NCBI RefSeq assembly: GCF_026015985.1
Contig: NZ_CP110389.1
Location: 2,698,001 to 2,762,000 of the forward strand
Direction of reading: 5' to 3'
DNA: 64,000 bases
DNA from: Rhodopseudomonas sp. P2A-2r
GTDB lineage: Bacteria > Pseudomonadota > Alphaproteobacteria > Rhizobiales > Xanthobacteraceae
Below the pieces are notes generated by a model. That model was not told the DNA's origin. It did no database searches and worked only from the letters and a program-made list of their open reading frames with translations. This document shows, one piece after another, positions 7,315-54,328 of this stretch (positions within the stretch are counted from its first letter, which is position 1; each line of letters begins with the position of its first letter). A program made the position numbers and the translations under genes.

Positions 7315-9237
7315 TCAGCCAGCCGCCTGTCCGGAACGCGCACCCGCAATGCCCAACACCTTCATGCGCGACGCCAGCGTGGTCGGCTTGAGGTCGAGCA
7401 GTTCGGCGGCGCCGCCGGGGCCGAACACCTTGCCGTTGCAGGCGAGGAGCGCCGCCTGGATGTTGCTGCGCTCGAGGTCGCGCAATTCCGCCGAGGTCAT
7501 CACCGCCGGTCTGGCGTCGGCCCTGGCGCGGCCGGGCGAAGCCGCCGCCACATGCGGGCCCGGCGCGTCCGGCAGGTCGATGCGCAGCCGGCCGTTCTGC
7601 GCCAGGATCACCGCGCGCTCGATGACGTTCTGTAGTTCGCGGACATTGCCCGGCCAGTCGTAGCGCGCGAGTTTTCGCGCATCGCCCTCCGAGAGACGCA
7701 AGTCGGATCGCAATTTCTCGCTCATCAGGAAGTGCTGCGCGAGCAGCGGAATGTCCTCGCGGCGCTCGCGCAGCGGCACCGACTCCACCGGAAACACGTT
7801 GAGCCGGAAATACAGGTCCTCGCGAAATTTTCCGCGCGCCACTTCCTGCTTGAGGTTGCGGTTGGTGGCGGCGATGACGCGGACGTCGACGGCGCGGGTG
7901 CGTTCCTCGCCGACGCGTTCGAAATTGCCCTCCTGCAGCACGCGCAGCAGCTTGCCCTGCAGCTCCAGCGGGATCTCGCCGACCTCGTCGAGAAACAGCG
8001 TGCCGCCGGAGGCGAGCTCGAAGCGGCCGATGCGGTCGCGCACCGCGCCGGTGAAGGCGCCGCGCACATGGCCGAAGAATTCGCTCTCGAACAGTTCGCG
8101 CGGGATAGCCGCACAATTGACCCGGATCAGCGGCCGGTCGCGGCGCGCGCTGGCCTCATGAATCGCGCGGGCGATCAACTCCTTGCCGGTGCCGGACTCG
8201 CCGGTGATCATCACCGCGGCTGTGGTCGGCGCCACCAGCTTGACCTGGCGCAAGGTCTGCTGGATAGCCTGGCTCTGCCCTATGATGCCGCGCGGATTGG
8301 TCTCGATGCGGATTTCCTCCTGCAGATAGGCGTTCTCCAGCTCCAGCCGTTCGCGCAACCGGTCGACTTCGGCGAGCGCAGCGTGCAGCTTCTCGTCGGC
8401 GGCGCGGCGCGCGCTGACGTCGCGAAATACGATCACCGCGCCGATCACCATGCTGCGGTCGCGGATCGGCGTGGAGGTGTATTCGACCCAGACCTTGCTG
8501 CCGTCCTTGCGCCAGAACACCTCGTTGTCGACATTGTGCACGGCGCCGTCGCGGAACGCGGCATAGATCGGGCAGTCGTGATCGGGGTAATGGCTGCCGT
8601 CGGCATGGCTGTGGTGCATGATCGGGTGAATGGCCTTGCCCACCAGCTCTTCCGCGCTCCAGCCGAGCATGCGCTCGGCAGCGGGATTGACGAAGGTGGT
8701 CTTGCCCTCGGCATTGACGCCATAAATGCCTTCGCCCGCGGCGCGCAGGATCAACTGGTTTTCCCTCTCAATATCCTGGAACACGCGCTCGACGCGCTGC
8801 CAGGCGGCGAGTCCGCTGCGCATGTGATCCTCGGCGGCGCCATCGACGCCGCGGCGGCGCCGCGCGTCGAGGTCGCTCATGGTCAGCAGCAGCAGCGCGC
8901 GCTCGCCCTGCGGCACCGCAGAGCCGGCATATTCCAGCCGCAGCGTCTCGCCGGTGGCGTGGCGCGGCGTCAGCGTCGGCGTCCACCAGGCGCCCTTGTC
9001 GAGCACCGCCTGGGTGAACACGATCAGCGCCGGCACCTGGCCCGGATGCAGCGCGCTGATCCTGGTCTGCCGCAGCAGCACGCGGTCATAGCCGAGCAGG
9101 GCGCAGGCCGCCGGATTGGCATCGACGATCTGGTCGGCGTCGGGATCGAGCAGCAGGGTCGGCTCGACGGCGTAGTCGAAGCTGACGGTGCGCAGGTCGG
9201 CGTCGCGGGAGGCGAGCTGATAAGGCTGGGAATCCAT
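7315..9237 (-). CDS. PAS-domain sigma-54-dependent transcriptional activator
   Basis: A 640-residue bacterial enhancer-binding protein. An N-terminal PAS-like domain (about 15-110) and a second PAS domain (about 155-270, [26 protein letters not shown]) are followed by a short coiled coil. Then comes the AAA+ domain with Walker A GESGTGKE (about 342) and the sigma-54-contacting GAFTGA (about 390). A Fis-type HTH lies at the C-terminus ([15 protein letters not shown]). No receiver domain is present, so a ligand or redox cue sensed by the PAS domains is expected. ATG 9237 has CGGAG 9 bases upstream. It is divergent from the cyanate operon, whose promoter is of the -24/-12 type, so it is the obvious activator. 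Confidence 0.9.
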
Positions 9238-9267
9238 CGCGGCCAACTCCGAAAAATCGTGATCCGG

Positions 9268-9300
9268 TTACGAAATATCGGATATCACGAATTTTCGTAA
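9268..9300. promoter_or_regulatory. candidate activator-binding inverted repeat (UAS)
   Basis: TTACGAAA at 9268-9275 and TTTCGTAA at 9293-9300 are perfect 8-bp inverse complements, with GATATC near the centre. The site sits about 57-90 bp upstream of the -24 element and about 30-60 bp upstream of the activator's own start. This is where an enhancer-binding protein site that also autoregulates would be expected. Binding is inferred only. Confidence 0.55.
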
Positions 9301-9356
9301 TCGGCAATTTGCGCTTCCGACGTTGCGGCAATGCGACTTCTGCGCGGCGCCGGCGC

Positions 9357-9371
9357 TGGCACACTCCTTGC
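9357..9371 (+). promoter_or_regulatory. sigma-54 (-24/-12) promoter of the cyanate operon
   Basis: TGGCAC (9357-9362), five bases, TTGC (9368-9371). The invariant GG and GC are separated by 10 bases, the canonical sigma-54 spacing, and every core consensus position matches. It lies 33 bases upstream of the cynA start. The divergent gene encodes a GAFTGA-type activator, which independently supports sigma-54 use. Confidence 0.85.
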
Positions 9372-9403
9372 GTAGCGATAGCCAACGCCACGCAGGAGGT
9401 CCC

Positions 9404-10786
9404 ATGTCCACGTTCGACAATCCGTTCGATCCCGCTCGCCGTCTGCGCTCCGGCTGCCCGTGCGGCCAGCATGCCAGCGGCGCCGAGCATGACGCCAGCC
9501 TGCAGCTCGCTTGCGCAGCGCCCGAGGATGAGGCCAAGCGTTATGAGGGCGTGGTCGCCTCCGCGGTGATGCGCGCGGTGTTTCCGAAAGAGGTGGCGCG
9601 GCGCGCCTTCCTGAAATCGGTCGGCGCCTCCGCCGCACTCGGCGTGCTCTCGCAGTTCTTCCCGATCAAGATGGCCACCGAAGTGTTCGCACAAGGCGTG
9701 GGCAAGCTGGAGAAGACCGATCTCAAGGTCGGCTTCATCCCGATCACCTGCGCCACGCCGATCATCATGGCCGACCCGCTCGGCTTCTACGCCAAGCAGG
9801 GCCTCAAGGTGGATGTGGTGAAGACCGCGGGCTGGGCCGTGATCCGCGACAAGACCATCAACAAGGAATATGACGCCGCGCATATGCTGGCACCGATGCC
9901 GATCGCGATCTCGCTGGGGCTCGGCTCGCAGCCGATCCCCTATACCGTGCCGGCGATCGAGAACATCAATGGCCAGGGCATCACGCTGGCCATGAAGCAC
10001 AAGGACAAGCGCGACCCCAAGGACTGGAAGGGTTTCAAGCTCGCTGTCCCCTTCGACTACTCGATGCACAACTACCTGCTGCGCTACTATCTCGCCGAGC
10101 ACGGCATCGACCCCGACACCGACATCCAGATCCGCTCGGTGCCGCCGCCGGAGATGGTCGCCAACCTCCGCGCCGACAATATCGACGGCTTCCTGGCGCC
10201 CGACAATATCTGCCAGCGCGCGATCTATGACGGCGTCGGCTTCATGCACCTGCTGTCCAAGGAAATCTGGGACGGTCATCCGTGCTGCAGCTTCGCCGCC
10301 AGCCGCGAATTCATCACGACGTCGCCGAACTCGTTCGCAGCATTGACCCGCGCCATTGTCGACGCCACCGCCTATGCCTCGAAGGCCGAGAACCGCAAGT
10401 CGATCGCCGAGGCCATCGCGCCCGCGGCCTATCTCAACGCGCCGCCGGTGGTGCTGGAGCAGGTGCTGACCGGGACCTATGCCGACGGCCTCGGAGGCAT
10501 CAAGGTGGATCCCAAGCGCGTCGATTTCGATCCGTTCCCGTGGCAGTCGTTCGCTGTGTGGATGATGACGCAGATGCAGCGGTGGGGCCAGATCAAGGGC
10601 GACGTCGACTACAAGGGCGTGGCCGAACAGGTGTTCCTCGCCGCCGACACCGGAAAGGTGATGAAGGAAATGGGCCTGACGCCGCCGGCGAGCGCCTACA
10701 AATCGTTCCAGGTGATGGGCAAGACCTTCGATCCGGAGAAGCCGAAGGAATATCTGGCGAGCTTCAAGATCAAGAAGGCGACGTGA
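9404..10786 (+). CDS. cynA: cyanate/nitrate-type ABC transporter substrate-binding protein
   Basis: A 460-residue periplasmic receptor of the NrtA/CmpA/CynA family. The mature domain begins near KTDLKVGFIPITCATPIIMAD, and family landmarks such as DYSMHNYLLRYYLAEHGIDP and GFLAPDNICQRA are present. Export is probably by the Tat route (ARRAFLKSVGASAALGVL), but the twin arginine lies about 65 residues from the start, after a Cys-containing segment (SGCPCGQHAS). ATG 9404 follows a strong CAGGAGGT. It is first in an operon with permease, ATPase and cyanase, so cyanate is the likely ligand; nitrate/bicarbonate receptors are close relatives. Confidence 0.85.
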   Translation: MSTFDNPFDPARRLRSGCPCGQHASGAEHDASLQLACAAPEDEAKRYEGVVASAVMRAVFPKEVARRAFLKSVGASAALGVLSQFFPIKMATEVFAQGVGKLEKTDLKVGFIPITCATPIIMADPLGFYAKQGLKVDVVKTAGWAVIRDKTINKEYDAAHMLAPMPIAISLGLGSQPIPYTVPAIENINGQGITLAMKHKDKRDPKDWKGFKLAVPFDYSMHNYLLRYYLAEHGIDPDTDIQIRSVPPPEMVANLRADNIDGFLAPDNICQRAIYDGVGFMHLLSKEIWDGHPCCSFAASREFITTSPNSFAALTRAIVDATAYASKAENRKSIAEAIAPAAYLNAPPVVLEQVLTGTYADGLGGIKVDPKRVDFDPFPWQSFAVWMMTQMQRWGQIKGDVDYKGVAEQVFLAADTGKVMKEMGLTPPASAYKSFQVMGKTFDPEKPKEYLASFKIKKAT

Positions 10787-10958: not shown

Positions 10959-11798
10959 ATGACCTTCTCCCTCCGCTTTCGCGCGGCGATCGTGTCGCTT
11001 GTCATCCTCGCGGCGTTCCTCGGTGTCTGGCACCTCGCGACGCGTGGCACCGGCACTGCTGCGACGATGTCGCCGGAATACGCAAAACTGATGGGGCTCA
11101 CCGCCACCGCCGGCAAATCGGCGATGCCCGGGCCGCTCGATGTCGGTGCCAAATTGTGGGAGCACCTCAAGCATCCGTTCTACGACAACGGTCCCAACGA
11201 CAAGGGCCTCGGCATCCAGCTCGCTTACTCCATCGGCCGGGTCGGGCTCGGCTATTTCCTCGCGGTGATCGTGGCGATCCCGCTCGGCTTCCTGATCGGC
11301 ATGTCGCCGCTGATGAGCAAGGCGCTGGATCCTTTCATCCAGATCCTGAAGCCGATCTCGCCGCTGGCGTGGATGCCGCTGGCGCTCTACACCATCAAGG
11401 ATTCCAGCCTGTCGGCCATCTTCGTGATCTTCATCTGCTCGGTATGGCCGATGCTGCTCAACACCGCCTTCGGTGTCGCCGCCGTGCGTCGCGAATGGAT
11501 CAACGTCGCGCGTACGCTGGAAGTGGGCAGTCTACGCCGCGCCTTCACAATCATCCTGCCGGCCGCCGCGCCGACCATCCTCACCGGCATGCGGATCTCG
11601 ATCGGCATCGCCTGGCTGGTGATCGTCGCCGCCGAAATGCTGGTCGGCGGAACGGGGATTGGTTACTTCGTCTGGAACGAATGGAATAATTTATCGATCA
11701 CGAATGTGATCATTGCGATCCTGATGATCGGCGTGATCGGCATGCTGCTCGATCAGATATTAGCGCGCTTCACCCGCATGGTCACCTTTCCGGAGTGA
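10959..11798 (+). CDS. cynB: cyanate/nitrate-type ABC transporter permease
   Basis: A 279-residue inner-membrane subunit of the NrtB/SsuC/TauC group. An N-terminal transmembrane helix (VSLVILAAFLGVWHLAT) is followed by a periplasmic insert and about five further helices. The ATPase-contact EAA-like loop is RREWINVARTLEVGSLRRAFTIILPAAAPTIL. ATG 10959 is the first start after the palindromic spacer and fits the family. Its stop overlaps the next start by one base (TGATG at 11796-11800), so translation is probably coupled. Confidence 0.9.
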   Translation: MTFSLRFRAAIVSLVILAAFLGVWHLATRGTGTAATMSPEYAKLMGLTATAGKSAMPGPLDVGAKLWEHLKHPFYDNGPNDKGLGIQLAYSIGRVGLGYFLAVIVAIPLGFLIGMSPLMSKALDPFIQILKPISPLAWMPLALYTIKDSSLSAIFVIFICSVWPMLLNTAFGVAAVRREWINVARTLEVGSLRRAFTIILPAAAPTILTGMRISIGIAWLVIVAAEMLVGGTGIGYFVWNEWNNLSITNVIIAILMIGVIGMLLDQILARFTRMVTFPE

Positions 11799-12694
11799 TG
11801 CAGCACATGACCGATAAATTCATTTCCATCGAGGGCATTTCGAAACGCTATCCGGCGGCGGGTGGCGGCAGTACGGCGGTGTTCGAGAATCTGTGGCTGT
11901 CGGTGCCGCGGGGTGAGTTCGGCTGTGTGATCGGGCATTCCGGTTGCGGCAAGACCACGGTGCTCAACATCCTCGCCGGGCTGGATGAACCCAGCGCCGG
12001 CACGGTGATCGTCGACGGCCAGGAGATCTCGGGCACCTCGCTCGATCGCGCGGTGATCTTCCAGAGCCACGCGCTGCTGCCATGGCGCACGGTGATGGGC
12101 AATGTCGCTTATGCTGTAACCTCGAAGTGGCGCGGCTGGGATAAGGCCAAGGTCAAGGCCCACGCGCAGACCTTCATCGATCTGGTCGGTCTCACCGGCA
12201 GCGAGCACAAGCGGCCCTCCGAACTGTCCGGCGGCATGAAGCAGCGCGTCGGCATCGCCCGTGCGCTGTCGATCACGCCAAAGATCATGCTGATGGACGA
12301 GCCGTTCTCGGCGCTGGACGCGCTGACCCGCGGCACGCTGCAGGATGAAGTTCGCCGCGTGTGCACCGACACCGGCCAGACCACCTTCATGATCACCCAC
12401 GATGTCGACGAAGCGATGTATCTCGCCGACAAGATTTTTCTGATGACCAACGGCCCCGGTGCGGTGCTGGCCGAAGTGGTCGAGAATCCGCTGCCGAAGG
12501 ACCGCTCGCGGCTCGATCTGCACAAGCACCCGCACTACTACGGGCTGCGCAATCACATCATCGATTTCCTGGTGACCCGCAGCAAGACCTTCACCCAGAC
12601 CACGCCGGACTTCGACCCGCGCCGCGTGCCGGTGGTGCGGCCGGCGTTGGCCGAGCCTGCGCTGGTGCCGCCCGCTCACAGCATCGCCCGCTAA
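11798..12694 (+). CDS. cynD: cyanate/nitrate-type ABC transporter ATP-binding protein
   Basis: A 298-residue cytoplasmic ATPase of the NrtD/SsuB/TauB type. Walker A is GHSGCGKTT, the Q-loop region VIFQSHALLPW, the signature LSGGMKQRVGIARAL, Walker B IMLMDEP, and the switch is MITHDVDEA. It energises import through the preceding permease. ATG 11798 overlaps the permease TGA; ATG 11807 (MTDKFIS) is an alternative. The C-terminal 45 residues after the ABC core are variable and proline-rich. Cyanase follows after 18 bases. Confidence 0.9.
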   Translation: MQHMTDKFISIEGISKRYPAAGGGSTAVFENLWLSVPRGEFGCVIGHSGCGKTTVLNILAGLDEPSAGTVIVDGQEISGTSLDRAVIFQSHALLPWRTVMGNVAYAVTSKWRGWDKAKVKAHAQTFIDLVGLTGSEHKRPSELSGGMKQRVGIARALSITPKIMLMDEPFSALDALTRGTLQDEVRRVCTDTGQTTFMITHDVDEAMYLADKIFLMTNGPGAVLAEVVENPLPKDRSRLDLHKHPHYYGLRNHIIDFLVTRSKTFTQTTPDFDPRRVPVVRPALAEPALVPPAHSIAR

Positions 12695-12712
12695 CAATCA
12701 TAGGAGAGACCC

Positions 12713-13201
12713 ATGATCCGTTCCGACCTCACCGAAAAACTGCTCGACATCAAGCGCGACAATGCATGGAGCTGGAAGTACATCTGCGAGAAGATCGGCG
12801 GCCATTCCGAGGTGCTGATCGTCGGGGCCATTCTCGGCAACATGAAATTGACAAAACCGCAGGCCGCCGCCGCCGGCGAGCTGTTCGGTCTCAGCAAGAG
12901 CGAGATCGCCATGCTCAACGAGGTGCCGATGCGCGCCGAGAACGTGCAGATGCCGCCGACCGATCCGCTGATCTATCGCTTCTACGAGATGGTGATGGTC
13001 AACGGCCCGGCGTGGAAGGTGCTGATCGAGGAGGAATTCGGCGACGGCATCATGTCGGCGATCGACTTCGACATGGTGATGAACCGCGTCGCCAATCCCA
13101 AGGGCGACCGCGTGCAGATCACCATGTCAGGCAAGTTCCTGCCGTACAAATATTACGGCGCCACCGGCAACAACCAGGAATACGGCTTCAAGGAGGAGTA
13201 G
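12713..13201 (+). CDS. cynS: cyanase (cyanate hydratase)
   Basis: It converts cyanate plus bicarbonate to ammonia and CO2 via carbamate, detoxifying cyanate and releasing nitrogen; a cytosolic decamer. The protein has 162 residues. The catalytic triad of the E. coli enzyme (Arg96, Glu99, Ser122) is present as Arg89, Glu92 (PTDPLIYRFYEM) and Ser115 (GDGIMSAIDF). The C-terminal dimerisation part (GKFLPYKYYG) is intact. AGGAGAG lies 6 bases upstream of ATG 12713. As the last gene of the operon it identifies the transporter's substrate. Confidence 0.97.
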   Translation: MIRSDLTEKLLDIKRDNAWSWKYICEKIGGHSEVLIVGAILGNMKLTKPQAAAAGELFGLSKSEIAMLNEVPMRAENVQMPPTDPLIYRFYEMVMVNGPAWKVLIEEEFGDGIMSAIDFDMVMNRVANPKGDRVQITMSGKFLPYKYYGATGNNQEYGFKEE

Positions 13202-53289: not shown

Positions 53290-53539
53290 CGGCATTTCCT
53301 GATGGTTGGAGAGGGCTTCCGGGTACCATGCAGCCGGCCGAGCGGCAATGCGGGCCAGCGCAGCGTCCGGCCGTTTGCGGCGCGGCAGTTTCTGCCGCAA
53401 CGGCACGATTTGCCGGGAGCGCCATCGTCGCTGCTCCCTGAAGGTCATTGTTATCACGAGGTTTTTTCGATGGCACGGCGCTTGCTGACCATTGGCTCAG
53501 GGAATTCACGCCGCGTGCGGCTTGAGCAGGAGTCTCAAT

Positions 53540-54328
53540 ATGCTGGCAGCTCTTACGGCCGCGACGACGGCACTCGACGCCCTGCAGGCGCTGACCTCGA
53601 AGAAGGGCTCGACGTCATCGGCGACCGCCAAGACCGGCGTCACGCAGAACGCTGCCTCGATCTTCGATGCCGACAGCAAGGCCTCCGGCGACACCACCGC
53701 CGCCAAGCCGGTGATCCACAGCTCCGCAAGCACCGGCACGCTGTCGACGAGCACCATGAGCGCGCTGCTCGCGGCACAGGGCCAGGCAACGACCGCGTCG
53801 ACCGGCTCGGCCGATAGTACTTCGGTGGCGTCAGCCAGTTCCACGGCGACCAAGAGCCGTTCGGCGGCGCTGAAGGATCTGTTCGCACAGCTCGACAGCG
53901 ATGGCGACGGCAAGGTCAGCAAGGCCGAATTCGAGGACAAGCTCGGCGCCGGCGGCACCAACACCGCCAATGCCGACAAGGTGTTCGCCAAGCTCGACAA
54001 GAACGGCGACGGCTCGGTGAGCCTCGACGAAATGTCCTCCGCCCTGAAGGGCCATGGCGGCGGGCACCATCACACTGCGAAGAGCGGCGGCTCCAGCAAC
54101 GGTTCGGATGCGACGGGGGCCACCAGCACCACCACGCTGAATGCCGACAGCACCACCACCACGTCGACCACCTATGCCGACGGCTCCAAGGTGTCGATGA
54201 CCTCGGCGCCGACCAACGCCGCATCGTCCAGCGCCACCAAGTCGTATAATTTCATCGAGCAGATGATCCAGAAGCAGGCCCAGGCAATCTCGAATTCAGG
54301 CGCGTCGTCGGTGTCGGTCAGCGCCTGA
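53540..54328 (+). CDS. EF-hand protein with Ser/Thr/Ala-rich flanks
   Basis: A 262-residue protein. Two canonical EF-hand loops, DSDGDGKVSKAEF and DKNGDGSVSLDEM (about 116-165), form one calcium-binding pair. The flanks are low-complexity Ser/Thr/Ala, with a His cluster (GGGHHHTAK) after the second loop. No signal peptide is clear. ATG 53540 follows CAGGAGT. Similar calmodulin-like proteins of unknown role occur in rhizobia. Its 3' end overlaps the convergent KTSC gene by 33 bases. Confidence 0.8.
   Translation: MLAALTAATTALDALQALTSKKGSTSSATAKTGVTQNAASIFDADSKASGDTTAAKPVIHSSASTGTLSTSTMSALLAAQGQATTASTGSADSTSVASASSTATKSRSAALKDLFAQLDSDGDGKVSKAEFEDKLGAGGTNTANADKVFAKLDKNGDGSVSLDEMSSALKGHGGGHHHTAKSGGSSNGSDATGATSTTTLNADSTTTTSTTYADGSKVSMTSAPTNAASSSATKSYNFIEQMIQKQAQAISNSGASSVSVSA

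Follow-up and report, generated by a model that had tools for sequence, protein, structure and literature searches.

The cyn genes of Escherichia coli and of cyanobacteria are regulated without sigma-54, the former by the LysR-type protein CynR and the latter by NtcA, a protein of the CRP/FNR type. In Pseudomonas pseudoalcaligenes (oleovorans) CECT5344, the gene cynF lies 268 bp upstream of cynA and is read in the opposite direction, the cynABDS operon needs CynF and a putative sigma-54 promoter precedes cynA (PMC6627978). A cynF mutant of this strain showed zero cyanase activity, whatever nitrogen source was tested, and the Pseudomonas cyn genes are induced by cyanate and repressed by ammonium (PMC6627978). 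Similar cynF arrangements were described in the same report for alpha-, beta- and gammaproteobacteria. In Bradyrhizobium sp. DOA9, mutation of rpoN also lowered the expression of cynS (PMC13207237), and a 2025 survey of predicted sigma-54 promoters includes cyanate lyase as a target, enriched in alpha- and gammaproteobacteria (PMC12316311).

The DNA analyzed here, a stretch of 64,000 nucleotides from Rhodopseudomonas sp. P2A-2r called the window, carries a cynABDS operon on its plus strand. The first gene, cynA (9404..10786), encodes a CmpA/NrtA-like substrate-binding protein (NMT1_2 in Pfam) and is followed by cynB (10980..11798), an NtrB-like permease gene over the cut-off of TIGR01183 ntrB, and cynD (11810..12694), an ATPase gene just under that of TIGR01184, the start codons of both being approximate. 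The cyanase gene cynS (12713..13201) is the only one in the 6.7-Mb genome, which also has one rpoN over the family cut-off. Divergent from cynA, on the minus strand, is the gene of a CynF-type activator of 640 amino acids (7315..9237), and the two start codons are 166 bp apart (9238-9403). An earlier, sequence-only reading of this DNA had placed a full-consensus -24/-12 element before cynA, and a perfect TGGCAC-N5-TTGC match was indeed found at 9357..9371 on the plus strand (TGGCACACTCCTTGC), with 32 bases between it and the ATG at 9404. Judged from the position of this element, transcription of cynA would be expected to start near 9383. The second perfect match in the window, TGGCACGGCGCTTGC (53471-53485, plus strand), stands just 5' of an ORF (53492-54328) whose translation shows EF-hand-like repeats by eye. 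An EF-hand protein gene, which may or may not be the same one, is among those reduced in the Bradyrhizobium rpoN mutants (PMC13207237).

The divergent product had been read as a protein with GAFTGA, Walker A, a Fis-type HTH and PAS domains and with no receiver domain, a composition now confirmed from the sequence and by Pfam. Walker A (GESGTGKE) is at residue 346 and GAFTGA at residue 393, and Pfam matches Sigma54_activat at 318-484 together with AAA_lid_14. The Fis-like HTH_8 (585-626) scores 19.6 bits, below the cut-off of 22, and the region aligns with relatives. A first PAS region was matched at 15-55 (PAS1 extends over about residues 15-122) and PAS2 at about 160-279; the Pfam search found no receiver domain and, unlike CynR, the protein is not LysR-type. 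The AlphaFold model of residues 1-300 has two PAS folds with a long helix between them (mean pLDDT 82, pTM 0.47). Foldseek retrieved DosP, FixL, LOV-HK and NifL-NifA with whole-model TM values of about 0.35 or less; these matches show a generic PAS pair, and no heme assignment is drawn from them. Conserved residues of PAS2 are H204, H208, H209 and C222. A PAS2 specific for cyanate was ruled out, as a histidine kinase encoded close to the L318 cyn operon, like single-PAS regulators elsewhere, carries a close version of the domain. Since PAS2 is thus of a widespread kind, PAS1 is the likelier candidate for the family-specific part. Some cynABDS operons that lack CynF have in their vicinity a PAS-domain gene with 46-50% identity to CynF PAS2; in L318 it spans 11477-12745 and has the look of a histidine kinase, and partial matches are present in L313 and L315. 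The operons of this type have TGGCCCG-type sigma-54 matches.

In the intergenic region, an 8+8 bp inverted repeat at 9268-9300 had been pointed out at enhancer distance. The letters exist (TTACGAAA / TTTCGTAA), but their extent and number were misjudged: an alignment of 20 intergenic regions, including the window's own, together with the scoring of 142 loci described below, gave three tandem copies of a 12-bp palindrome with the consensus ACGANNNNTCGT. The predicted operator sites, to which no strand is assigned, are site 1, CCGAAAAATCGT, at 9249..9260 (7/8 consensus letters), site 2, ACGAAATATCGG, at 9270..9281 (7/8, 21 bp after site 1), and site 3, ACGAATTTTCGT, at 9287..9298 (8/8, 17 bp after site 2). 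The 8+8 repeat was rejected as a binding unit, as its two arms are the left half of site 2 and the right half of site 3, and a repeat search on the window gives other overlapping pairings besides it. Across relatives, the -24/-12 element is conserved, and the place of the 8+8 repeat is taken by the conserved three-palindrome array. The array occupies the stretch from 12 to 61 bp 5' of the cynF start codon, so that cynF would likely regulate itself. A plus-strand scan with the near-palindromic motif found no other array of at least 18/24 in the window, and the two-site pattern ACGANNNNTCG-N5-7-CGANNNNTCGT occurs a single time in the 6.7-Mb genome, at the cyn locus. This pattern was present in 29 of 121 genomes, in 16 of them at an already known regulator locus; four others have AT-rich matches of unverified kind and nine have it elsewhere only, one of these with 13 GC-richer copies. 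The same pattern read backwards, used as a control, matched in 6 of the 121.

To follow the array beyond this genome, 158 loci with a regulator match were collected (L001-L023, L031-L110, L137-L149, L157-L161 and L192-L228), with L024-L030, L111-L136, L150-L156 and L162-L191 left out as partly duplicate places and partly single-PAS relatives. Among the named genomes, the best regulator matches (the best 80 of 545 were kept) belong to Tardiphaga, Bradyrhizobium and Afipia, along with some other records. Setting aside 14 loci in which the match begins after residue 40 left 144 full-length regulators. The nearest tested divergent gene was cynA in 125 of these, cynS in seven, cynB in three and nitB in three; three of the six loci with none (L014, L054 and L060) are records short on that side. 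L014 and L060, at contig ends, were unscorable, which left 142 loci, including the window's own and some genomes twice, or 132 once identical operator regions were removed. The best three sites near each full-length regulator were scored to a maximum of 24, with spacings of 20-23 and 16-18 bp allowed. In all 142 loci the array beat the best of 30 dinucleotide shuffles of the same locus; 130 reached 22-24, against a shuffle mean of 14.5 and a highest single shuffle score of 19. Six of the 132 unique regions score only 17-19, a range that shuffles also attain overall. Spacing was 21+17 in 89 unique regions, 22+17 in 32, 23+17 in five, 22+18 in five and 23+18 in one. When no range was imposed and sites with 7 or 8 of 8 letters were taken from 133 unique regions, the distances were mostly 17 (121 pairs), 38 (89), 21 (88), 22 (30) and 39 (28). 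The consensus was drawn from the same loci that were later scored, so that the independent controls are the uniqueness of the pattern in the genome, given above, and the loci that have no regulator.

For the latter, 20 of 52 cynS places were picked, from genomes in which the regulator search listed no match (for G201, a second cynS copy), and the scan took in the 450 bp before cynA or cynS, L303 being cut by a contig end. None of the 20, all without a full-length regulator in the fetched stretch, has an array (13-16 of 24), and six of them have cynABD alongside. The array follows the regulator, not the target genes. In six loci (L142, L145, L146, L148, L149 and L207), a CynF-type regulator accompanies cynS with what appears by eye to be a formate/nitrite-type transporter in place of cynABD. 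Related PAS regulators with a KPTTLASR helix in L217-L219 (longer stretches, L330-L332) have two good ACGANNNNTCGT sites. The idea that they face thiocyanate genes was ruled out, their neighbors looking unrelated by eye. As these neighbors have no relation to cyn or nit either, the motif also occurs outside clusters of those two kinds.

The promoter was followed in the same 132 unique regions through the best-matching 15-mer at a distance of 20-200 bp beyond site 3. By raw counts, with no shuffle baseline, the match to TGGCAC-N5-TTGC was 10/10 in 41 regions, 9 in 79, 8 in 11 and 7 in one, and the GG/GC core is present in 126 of the candidates. In Loktanella L160, two good sites are found with no good sigma-54 core. 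The -12 TTGC reads TTGA in the relatives L009, L010, L011 and L013, which is unusual for a promoter so well conserved in its other letters. From the center of site 3 to the -24/-12 element, the distances fall at 61-66, 72-80, 85-89, 97 and 108 bp, and helical phasing is suggestive only, as the p values of 0.014 and 0.037 come from hand-picked representatives, with clusters chosen after the data were seen and kinship uncontrolled.

Taken together, the parts, their conservation and the tie between array and regulator make it very probable that this is a CynF-type one-component switch, in which the activator acts from the three palindromes on the sigma-54 promoter of cynABDS. Control of this kind by a divergent PAS-type activator was the core of the sequence-only reading, and both its conservation and the genetics published for other species support it well. 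The PAS-PAS-AAA+-Fis protein would bind the three ACGANNNNTCGT palindromes, 21 and 17 bp apart, probably with one dimer on each, and by analogy with NorR the dimers may nucleate one AAA+ hexamer. The hexamer would then contact sigma-54 RNA polymerase waiting at 9357-9371 and open the cynA promoter, so that cynABDS would be expressed in the presence of cyanate and under a demand for nitrogen. A PAS domain may read cyanate or something made from it.

An unlikely, though not negligible, alternative is that nitrogen limitation acts on the sigma-54 promoter through NtrC or some other activator, with the divergent protein and its palindromes serving mainly for self-control or having little effect. 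Ammonium represses the cyn genes of P. pseudoalcaligenes and the authors suggest a role of the Ntr system (PMC6627978), the closeness of the array to the cynF start codon fits self-control, and in L306 a sigma-54 match of the TGGCAT type is found at a cynABDS cluster that lacks the regulator. Yet the CECT5344 mutant lacks cyanase activity in any nitrogen source tested (PMC6627978), and array and regulator are present or absent together. There is a much smaller chance that the palindromes bind some other protein, such as a repressor or nucleoid protein, and lie beside the activator gene by accident; binding by the activator is deduced from the letters, and L217-L219 have such sites beside other genes. 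Against this, nit1C clusters carry the array only beside a CynF-type regulator, and regulators with an NPTT helix (L157, L161 and L215) go with sites of the ATGAAATTTCAT form. Chance sequence, finally, is hardly credible as the origin of the -24/-12 match and the repeats: the window holds two perfect matches against 0.19 expected, and at least two per window turn up in 4 of 100 shuffles, but sequence and position are conserved across relatives.

The array also occurs away from cyanate genes, at the nit1C clusters for cyanide and nitriles. In a search of 349 genomes, nitB was found in 13, all with a sigma-54-like match upstream, and the array was present only in the one with a CynF-type regulator. 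None of the 12 nit1C loci without a CynF-type regulator within 1.5 kb has an array (13-17 of 24), and with flanks of this length a more distant regulator would be missed. These 12 clusters (L260-L271) have a sigma-54-like element upstream of nitB, and in many of them ATTGAATGCAT-like repeats can be seen by eye, which hints at another activator and an operator of its own. A search of 83 genomes of family f65 gave four CynF-type regulators. Each of these is encoded divergently from nit1C and their arrays score 24, 24, 23 and 20; one of the four is the array-positive nitB locus of the larger search. Two Acinetobacter plasmids have a like layout of CynF-type regulator and nit1C, with variant sites such as ATGAAATTTCAT. 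In Loktanella salsilacus, a single regulator gene is flanked by a cyn operon on one side and a nit1C cluster on the other. No more than two good sites accompany it, and upstream of the nitB of this cluster the motif is absent.

In a tree of 52 rows, the six nit-type regulators, from the four f65 genomes and the two Acinetobacter plasmids, fall into one clade (100/100) nested in a cyn-type group, whose own support of 90/93 is below the tool's mark for firm branches, under a midpoint root. Most cyn- and nit-type rows have K/RPTT in the recognition helix, and NPTT is found in Acinetobacter (nit; L157 and L161) and L215 (cyn), whose sites include ATGAAATTTCAT; this apparent covariation involves few lineages. 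Some single-PAS paralogs with KPST or KAST have CACAAATTTGTG-like repeats by eye. We lean towards the view that the regulators of CynF type belong to one family with those that some bacteria have at nit1C, an interchangeable "cyano" switch that has its own three-palindrome enhancer and has moved between operons for cyanate (cynABDS, or cynS with another transporter) and for cyanide and nitriles (nit1C). In this view, a short recognition helix tells the operator letters apart, K/RPTT going with ACGA and NPTT with ATGA. If this is true, the pairing of helix and operator becomes a testable specificity code and a predictor of regulons. A fixed three-site enhancer common to bacteria of the Tardiphaga/Bradyrhizobium type and to more remote members of the phylum would allow target prediction for such regulators, as well as cyanate and cyanide biosensors. 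The question of what CynF senses also becomes approachable, because one type of regulator is found opposite cyanate genes or, in other genomes, opposite cyanide genes.

Among described regulators, NitA of the nit1C cluster of CECT5344 is also a divergent Fis-family sigma-54 regulator (PMC11049912, PMC5333837, PMC6368324). NitA targets nit1C and the window's regulator adjoins cyn, the likeness being one of description; no nitB match was found in the window's genome (E 1e-20), nor is the regulator next to nit1C genes. At norVW of Escherichia coli, three enhancer sites are essential for NorR and scaffold its hexamer (PMC2941729). Both NorR and the window's regulator are divergent one-component activators, but NorR senses NO through a GAF domain and the latter has two PAS domains, with no GAF domain found by Pfam and 362.6 bits against NCBIfam NorR, below the cut-off of 476. 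With CynF of CECT5344, the window shares the divergent Fis-like sigma-54 regulator, the cynABDS order and the sigma-54 promoter before cynA. The gap is 268 bp there and 166 bp here, and the likeness rests on gene layout rather than protein sequence: CECT5344 CynF is not among the best 120 of 7749 listed protein matches, which are close relatives, and no locus with the reported neighbors of its cynF was recognized in the genomes searched. A three-site operator like that of the window is not described for CECT5344 in the consulted passages of PMC6627978, and the literature search, which drew on passages of the openly available papers cited here, gave no account of one. The sequence-only reading had taken the circuit to be undescribed, a claim that has to be given up because CynF of P. 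pseudoalcaligenes has this arrangement (PMC6627978) and cyanate lyase already figures in the sigma-54 survey (PMC12316311). The circuit is thus known in kind and the window's genome is a further host of it. What looks new is the operator of three palindromes, which goes with the regulator and not with the target genes, and which is used again at nit1C clusters.
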